This document shows positions 56,911-58,344 of a stretch of 64,000 bases of DNA, piece by piece (positions within the stretch are counted from its first letter, which is position 1; each line of letters opens with the position of its first letter). The translations under genes and the position numbers were made by a program. The notes under the pieces are model-generated. The model saw only the letters and a list, made by a program, of their open reading frames with translations, searched no databases and was not told where the DNA came from. This stretch comes from Catellatospora citrea (GTDB lineage: Bacteria; Actinomycetota; Actinomycetes; Mycobacteriales; Micromonosporaceae), in NCBI RefSeq assembly GCF_003610235.1, contig NZ_RAPR01000001.1, forward strand, positions 4,650,001 to 4,714,000, written 5' to 3'.

Positions 56911-58344
56911 TCAGCGGATGGGCAGCTTGTGCCAGGTCTGGCCGTCCGTGGAGACGGCCGTCCAGCCCGCGCGGAACAGGTCGAGCGCGACGTAGCCGTC
57001 GGTCGTGGCGCGCAGCTCGCCGACCGTCGGCAGGGTGCCGCCCGCCTGGACGAAGCTCGCGCCCAGGTCGCCGCTGACGTAGAACCGGCTCTCCGGACCG
57101 GCCACCAGGATGCGGCCGTCGGGCAGGTAGACCGGCTCGCCGACGGGCGCGAAGCCGGCCCCGCCGGAGACGCGTACGGGCACGCGGCCCGCGTACACGG
57201 AGATGATCTTGTTGTCTTTCAGGGCGAACGCCAGCACGTCCTCGCCGCGCACGGTGGCGGTGACCCGGTCCGCGCCCGCCGCGCCCGGCAGTTCGTGGCG
57301 CTGCCACTGCGCGCCGTCGGCGGTCGAGGCCAGGTAGGCCGTGCCGCCGTCCAGCCCGGCCACCCACGCCAGGCCCGACGGGGTGCGGCCGCGCGCGGCC
57401 CAGGTGACCGTGAGCCCGGGGTCGCCGGGCGCGACGGGCGGCTTCGCGCCGGTGTCGGCCACGATCTGCCAGGTCTGGCCGCCGTCGGCGGTGCGGGCGA
57501 AGGTCGGCCGGCAGCTGGGCAGCTCCCGGCTGCCGCAGCTGGTACGCAGCCAGCCGGCCGCGCCGTCGAGCTCGAACTCGGTGATGAAGCCCGGCACGTC
57601 CGGGGCGGTGGCGGGGTTGAAGATGCCGTCGATGACCAGGCCGGCCCCGGAGCCCGAGCCCGAGTACACGGGCGCGGGCGGCGCGGTGACCGAGGCGCTC
57701 GGCGAGGTGGCCGTGTCGTCCGGTGACAGCTGCGGCCGCCACGGCTGGAACACGCCCGCGGCGGCGATGAGCAGCACCGCGGCGGCGCTGGCGGCCTGCG
57801 CGGTGCGGCGGCGGGCCTTGATCCGGCCCGCGCGGACCCGCACCTGCTCCAGCGGCGGCGCCTCGACGTCGTCGAGCAGCCCCCGCAGCGCGTCCCGGCC
57901 CCGGGAGAGCCGTGACTTGACCGTGCCCACGGGGACCTCCAGCAGTTCGGCGACCTCGTCCAGGGGCAGATCGGCGAGGTAGTGCAGGACGACGACCTCG
58001 CGGTACCGGCTCGGGATGGCGGCCAGCGCCGCGCGCAGATCGGTGTTGTCGGGCTCCGGCGCGGCCGCGGTGACCCGGGTCAGCGGCCGCTCCCGCAGCA
58101 GGATGGTGTCCAGCAGCTGGCGGCGCCGCCAGCGGCGGCGCACCACGTTGATGGCGACGGTACGCAGCCACGCCTCCGGCGCGTCCACATCGCTCAGGCC
58201 GTGCCGCCGGGCCAGCGCCCGCGCGAAGGCCTCCTGGACGGCGTCCTGCGCCTCGGTCAGGTCGGTGGTGAACGCGTAGACCTGCGCCACCAGCCGGCGG
58301 TACCCGGCGTGGTACAGCTCACCCAGCTCGTCCTGCGCGGTCAT
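56911..58344 (-). CDS. ECF sigma factor fused to membrane anchor and extracytoplasmic domain
   Basis: A 477-residue single-chain protein. Residues about 10-75 are sigma region 2 ([19 protein letters not shown]) and about 100-155 region 4 ([39 protein letters not shown], as a span). An arginine-rich helix (about 168-181) leads into a transmembrane helix (about 183-199). A Ser/Pro linker and about 260 extracytoplasmic residues follow, with Asp-box-like turns such as [17 protein letters not shown] and STDGQTWHK, as in beta-propeller sialidase-type repeats. It would place the sigma factor at the membrane and couple it to an external signal. ATG 58344 is the start. Confidence 0.88.

Follow-up and report, generated by a model that had tools for sequence, protein, structure and literature searches.

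The window, a stretch of 64,000 nucleotides from Catellatospora citrea, carries on its minus strand a single reading frame in which an ECF sigma factor, an Arg-rich segment, a predicted membrane helix and a propeller-like exterior follow one another without interruption (Table 1). On one side lies trpS, whose start we placed by eye at the ATG at 58446 (the list of open reading frames begins it at 58377), and on the other a gene with CBS and CorC_HlyC domains; both serve here as markers of synteny only. Farther along, at 53603-55749 of the minus strand, two frames resemble galactokinase and UDP-glucose 4-epimerase, as judged by eye from their translations.

Table 1. Features of the locus, numbered from the first nucleotide of the window
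Feature	Position	Strand	Basis
One-piece ECF sigma factor / putative membrane sensor	56911..58344	-	ORF, ATG start, 477 aa
Sigma-70 region 2, residues 10-76	58117..58317	-	Sigma70_r2 PF04542, E 1.5e-10
Sigma-70 region 4, residues 103-153	57886..58038	-	Sigma70_r4_2 PF08281, E 3.8e-16
Arg-rich tail, predicted cytoplasmic, residues 159-180	57805..57870	-	Conservation; alignment with split partners
Predicted transmembrane helix, residues 181-199	57748..57804	-	Kyte-Doolittle, AlphaFold2 model, homologues
Pro/Ser/Thr-rich stalk, residues 200-228	57661..57747	-	Sequence; low pLDDT
Beta-propeller, predicted extracytoplasmic, four Asp-box-like turns, residues 229-477	56914..57660	-	Model, fold comparison, motifs
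Candidate ECF-type promoter motif GGAACC-N16-ACTCACTA, upstream of sigma start	58375..58404	-	Exact pattern
trpS, divergent neighbour (synteny only)	58446..59477	+	PF00579
CBS/CorC_HlyC-domain gene, convergent neighbour (synteny only)	55889..56890	+	PF00571, PF03471

Domain plan of the one-piece protein

The original prediction saw sigma regions 2 and 4 running into an Arg-rich segment, a membrane helix and a propeller-like exterior, and Pfam, hydropathy and an AlphaFold2 model bear out this plan. The models for both sigma regions score over their cut-offs, as does TIGR02937 (72.4 bits vs 42.9), and no model of sigma region 1.1 or 3 matched the protein in Pfam at E up to 1. The most hydrophobic stretch, residues 181-199 (mean Kyte-Doolittle 1.79), lies C-terminal to the Arg-rich one, and a hydrophobic window of at least 1.4 is present in 41 of the 42 full-length one-piece homologues. 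Going by hydropathy and the placement of Arg and Lys, the sigma domain would lie inside the cell and the propeller outside. The AlphaFold2 model, built on 43 alignment rows (mean pLDDT 77.9, pTM 0.55), contains a single helix, 165-196, that spans the Arg-rich tail and the membrane helix without a break. Confidence is high in the propeller (pLDDT mostly 85-98, but 68 and 76 in two blocks of ten residues), ranges from 37 to 86 in the sigma part and falls below 50 in the stalk at residues 197-210 and 212-220. The propeller-like turns read from the sequence reappear as four Asp-box-like motifs, at residues 285, 341, 424 and 465, and as a beta-propeller in this model; the exterior measures 278 residues, not the 260 first given. 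The Pfam BNR match of the window protein is weak (E 0.12; 12.9 bits vs a cut-off of 27), and two of the split orthologues introduced below exceed that cut-off, L047 with 46.6 bits for PSII_BNR and 37.9 for BNR, and L043 with 30.5 for BNR. YCF48-type and PknD-type propellers are among the closest known systems.

Such a plan could arise spuriously if a sequencing frameshift had joined two genes, or if an internal start gave rise to two proteins, and sister genera do carry two genes at this locus; we nevertheless consider an artefact very improbable. The same one-piece protein is found in 11/11 genus genomes searched (65-100% identity over its length), and among 107 homologues found by a search that scored only the 7994 candidates with most words in common, 42 (P0001-P0042) cover 99-100% of the window protein at 49-96% identity, those with named organisms coming from Catellatospora, Allorhizocola, Rhizocola and Catelliglobosispora. 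This conservation refutes the frameshift, which it excludes in practice, and makes an internal start unlikely. Third-position GC stays at 0.92-1.00 along the whole gene, without a step where sigma factor and partner join; the sole in-frame ATG is codon 1, the candidates for an internal start near the junction are the GTG codons 139, 168, 190 and 198, and Met stands opposite residues 150-205 in just 7 of 43 aligned rows. One protein, as first proposed, is thus what the locus encodes, and a start after residue 180 is improbable.

The membrane partner as a separate gene

The loci named here are the best 80 of 466, fetched by alignment of the sigma domain; further genomes of the family Micromonosporaceae, to which the sister genera with the split form belong, were also read. 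Among these 80, six loci are one-piece (L031-L036) and 15 are split orthologues (L037-L051), in which the sigma frame ends after region 4 and the open reading frame right after the sigma gene carries the same exterior, recognized by a profile of residues 205-477 at E 3.8e-27 to 1.2e-56. The split orthologues come from three MAGs, three Phytohabitans, one Micromonospora, one Plantactinospora, four Dactylosporangium, two Asanoa and one Longispora; weaker matches to the profile (E 6.5e-12 to 1.1e-4) occur in L052, L054, L055, L078, L079, L087 and L090 of the same best 80. Sigma and partner frames overlap by 8 nt in L040, L043 and L047 and by 14 nt in L045, and not at all in L042. In alignments of the junction, the fused helix region pairs with the starts of the separate partners, e.g. 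LARSRSALLDEIEQPPL; judged from these sequences, the end of region 4 passes straight into the N-terminus of the partner in the fused protein, and the Arg-rich tail corresponds to what is, in relatives, the N-terminal end of the separate partner. In Phytohabitans suffuscus (L039:3530-4719) the partner gene seems to lie in two frames, one of 155 aa and the profile match elsewhere, and is perhaps broken or affected by a sequence error.

Gene order is shared between the two forms. Divergent trpS lies at most 3 kb upstream in 6/6 one-piece loci and 15/15 split orthologues among the best 80 of 466 (adjacent in 17 of these 21, about 2 kb off in the four Dactylosporangium), and in the flank of six of the other 59 loci (L053, L068, L070, L071, L096, L098). 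The CBS/CorC gene is found beyond the unit in 6/6 one-piece and 12/15 split orthologous loci, again among the best 80, and sits on the other strand in the four Dactylosporangium. A diverged sigma-partner pair with 54-57% sigma identity occupies the trpS/CBS site in Virgisporangium and Rugosimonospora (L053, L068, L070), where the promoter motif described below is missing.

In a midpoint-rooted tree of 64 sigma domains, the one-piece clade of the window protein (23 rows, support 100/99) is nested among split forms, the forks that separate it from the split rows L037, L049 and L055 having support of 87/79, 93/96 and 86/85. Three changes between the one-piece and split states are needed over the whole tree. 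A second one-piece lineage with a clear helix, L022/P0049/P0050, has a different type of propeller, with a Sortilin-type match among the precomputed Pfam domains of P0049 and P0050. P0082 is one-piece by length but lacks a hydrophobic helix, and its frame may be faulty; we therefore left it out of the tally of independent fusions.

The split loci, the profile and the tree all indicate that the C-terminal part descends from a separate membrane-partner gene, and the window protein is, on this comparison of sequences, a gene fusion of an ECF sigma factor with its own membrane partner. The original prediction remarked that no anti-sigma gene is adjacent. This holds for the neighbours, which are only the CBS/CorC gene and trpS, but not for the locus as a whole, where the partner sits fused within the protein: because relatives encode it separately, right after the sigma gene and mostly overlapping it, the C-terminal part is the seemingly missing partner. 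Since two genes in relatives are now one protein, the membrane sensor is suggested to be the dedicated regulator of the sigma factor, a natural fusion being good evidence that the two act together.

Promoter motif and control of the sigma domain

A core motif, GGAAC-N17-[AG][CA]TC, which has the form of an ECF promoter, lies upstream of 21/21 orthologues, one-piece and split, and of 0/59 other loci among the best 80 of 466. Chance would yield a mean of 0.16 in first-order Markov copies, and 21/21 is no independent test, the motif having been drawn from the same upstream regions in which it was counted; its fixed spacing across 21 diverged loci would still be hard to get by chance. The exact form GGAACC-N16-ACTCA precedes the gene in 11/11 genus genomes, and the window genome has this one match plus one more place at one mismatch. 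Six extra exact matches, spread over 3 of the 11 genomes, are at chance level, since a reversed control pattern gave nine or so matches across the 11. By exact motif, no regulon beyond the gene's own promoter rises above chance in the 11 genus genomes; that search covered the exact -10 element, and a wider regulon may exist. The motif suggests that the sigma gene is autoregulated from its own promoter, with this sigma factor the presumed reader, but the reader could be another sigma factor. In 8 of the 11 genus genomes the exact motif stands before the gene itself and nowhere else, which makes it a ready reporter, one that would suit testing whether a tail of 20-40 residues can act as an anti-sigma factor.

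We think it probable that the protein is an ECF sigma factor of SigE-like, TIGR02983-like type fused to its membrane partner, autoregulated, anchored at the membrane and released on sensing by the propeller. Transcribed from its GGAAC-N17-[AG][CA]TC promoter, it would enter the membrane with the propeller facing out and the sigma domain facing in. In the resting state, the sigma domain would stay at the membrane, kept off RNA polymerase by the Arg-rich tail beside the helix, until a ligand or a cell-wall signal acting on the propeller led to its release, for which intramembrane cleavage of the kind seen in IutY is the likeliest route. For the window protein, we infer both the inhibition by the C-terminal part and the proteolysis. 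IutY of Pseudomonas putida (ECF243), which consists of a cytosolic ECF sigma domain, a membrane segment and a periplasmic anti-sigma part, is processed by Prc and RseP and is called the one one-piece sigma factor experimentally characterised in this respect (PMC8999054, PMC5411451); according to a review, proteolysis activates the one-piece sigma/anti-sigma protein IutY and is expected to activate those of ECF48, 52 and 53 (PMC8999054). M50 site-2-protease-type genes are present in the window genome, and say nothing specific because they are also present in 14/14 control genomes.

Cleavage would be dispensable if the sigma domain, still tethered, switched between open and closed arrangements of sigma2 and sigma4 through a conformational change across the membrane, perhaps binding RNA polymerase there. 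The unbroken predicted helix through the tail and the membrane could transmit such a movement, and CnrY, in which a two-helix segment is followed by one transmembrane helix, offers a precedent of sorts. Its small cytosolic segment blocks its sigma factor, a pair of helices keeping sigma2 and sigma4 in the closed arrangement, and release is believed to come from a conformational switch (PMC4598750). No significant sequence match to a CnrY-type anti-sigma factor was found in the window protein or the partners scanned: PF17524 (CnrY) was absent from the former and reached E 0.036 in 1 of 7 of the latter (L055). A membrane-bound holoenzyme would have to reach promoters on the chromosome, and IutY is processed by Prc and RseP; we regard a tethered switch as unlikely. 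Less likely still, in our estimate, is a partner that activates or localises the sigma factor and inhibits nothing, the fusion just keeping both together. It would sit well with the searches of the tail: no known anti-sigma family matched in the window protein (Pfam) and none significantly in the 7 separate partners scanned, and a 17-row tail profile found no significant solved relative among PDB sequences (best E 1.6). The arrangement of the split loci points the other way, resembling sigma/anti-sigma operons, in which the sigma gene comes first and is followed by an overlapping membrane-protein gene, and so does the conservation of the tail.

Compared with 32 distant one-piece homologues, identity averages 71% in the tail, 79-81% in regions 2 and 4, 35% in the transmembrane helix, 26% in the stalk and 39% in the propeller; outside the sigma domain, no part is better conserved than the tail. 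This pattern would make sense if the tail touched the sigma domain and the exterior followed a changing ligand. From dN/dS (0-0.16 in the sigma part, 0.32-0.78 in the propeller) we draw no conclusion, as dS is unreliable at GC3 near 1. Across the orthologues the tail follows roughly the consensus P-x-[LM]-x-x-[VI]-x-x-R-[AV]-x-x-x-[RK]-x-R. At about 22-40 residues it is below the size of class I anti-sigma domains, for which a lower limit of 50 residues was set in one study. A zinc-finger anti-sigma domain in the linker was considered and rejected, as Pfam showed none at E up to 1 and residues 1-200 lack Cys, and a PF00424 (REV) match in the partner of L064 (22.5 vs a cut-off of 22) was taken as a chance match to Arg-rich sequence.

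Two-gene units and other one-piece sigma factors

Beyond the orthologues, an open reading frame of at least 120 codons starts near the sigma stop in 72 of the 74 split loci among the best 80 of 466, a raw count without chance control; none was found in L106 and L110, the sequence of L110 ending soon after the sigma stop. Overlaps of 4, 8, 11 or 14 nt are frequent among these split loci, and 71 of the 72 adjoining frames have a hydrophobic helix within their first 110 residues. In 70 of the 72, L038 (start set late) and L039 (partner of just 155 aa, frame maybe broken) being omitted, a median of 40 residues precedes the helix. The 15 positions just ahead of the helix contain at least 5 Arg/Lys (median 7), whereas the median for the 15 positions that follow is 1. 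In this set, which was picked by similarity to the window sigma factor and is no census, the plan of sigma factor, short Arg-rich tail, helix and varied exterior is, by sequence, common in these actinobacteria. The SigE-like sigma genes of L056-L110 (Streptomyces, Nocardioides, Kribbella and others) mostly overlap downstream genes whose products are single-pass membrane proteins that bear an Arg-rich tail and have exteriors that differ by eye. In the literature covered, which did not extend to the ECF re-classification of 2021 or the actinobacterial survey of 2015, we found no study of the partner as a regulator. It is conceivable, if on balance doubtful, that the Arg-rich tail is the minimal zinc-free anti-sigma element of a large actinobacterial class of sigma/membrane-sensor systems, in which sensors have been exchanged freely and several fusions have occurred; were this so, natural proof that sigma factor and partner are paired would come from the window protein and the remaining one-piece lineages.

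Known families share this plan to different degrees. The window protein is like IutY in joining sigma factor, membrane segment and exterior in one polypeptide; IutY, however, belongs to Gram-negative iron-carrier signalling with an outer-membrane receptor, whereas the window protein has a propeller and comes from an actinobacterium. No FecR-type domain, the kind that IutY carries on its extracytoplasmic side, matched in the window protein (Pfam, E up to 1). ECF48, ECF52 (of which SCO4117 is a studied member) and ECF53, all of Actinobacteria, have the same order of sigma factor, transmembrane helix and exterior, with proteolytic release proposed, but are described with a zinc finger, and ECF52 also with a carbohydrate-binding module, neither of which matched in the window protein. 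Its best NCBIfam model is that of the SigE family, TIGR02983 (E 6e-39), with 133.5 bits below the curated cut-off of 141.55; two orthologous split sigma factors also fall slightly below it (129.8 and 140.7), and SigE-family sigma factors occur in similar two-gene units with a membrane protein that has a short Arg-rich tail. The protein thus resembles IutY, ECF48/52/53 and the SigE family in plan and falls outside each by the tests applied, which for ECF48/52/53 was the zinc finger. The comparison also drew on PMC5826349, PMC7406223 and PMC8103513.

The architecture is not the singular one that the original prediction implied: IutY and, as a proposal, ECF48/52/53 are already in print, and the same genome encodes 12 further one-piece proteins of sigma factor, single helix and exterior among the 51 places read (the 30 best and 21 picked mainly for long frames) of its 78 sigma-like places. 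This count is what remains of 15 rows labelled one-piece once L111 (the window itself) and L158 and L159, which lack the form of sigma factor, tail and single helix, are set aside. In a quick tree the 12 fall in clades apart from the window protein, and the three that were scanned all belong to the SigE family, with TIGR02983 above its cut-off. They lie on contig G000:C1 at L131-L133, L136, L139 and L144-L149, and their exteriors differ by eye. At L131 and L144 (G000:C1:5628243-5631898), the genes of three one-piece sigma proteins that resemble one another adjoin on a single strand, which looks like a tandem expansion; L131, on scanning, is a member of the SigE family.
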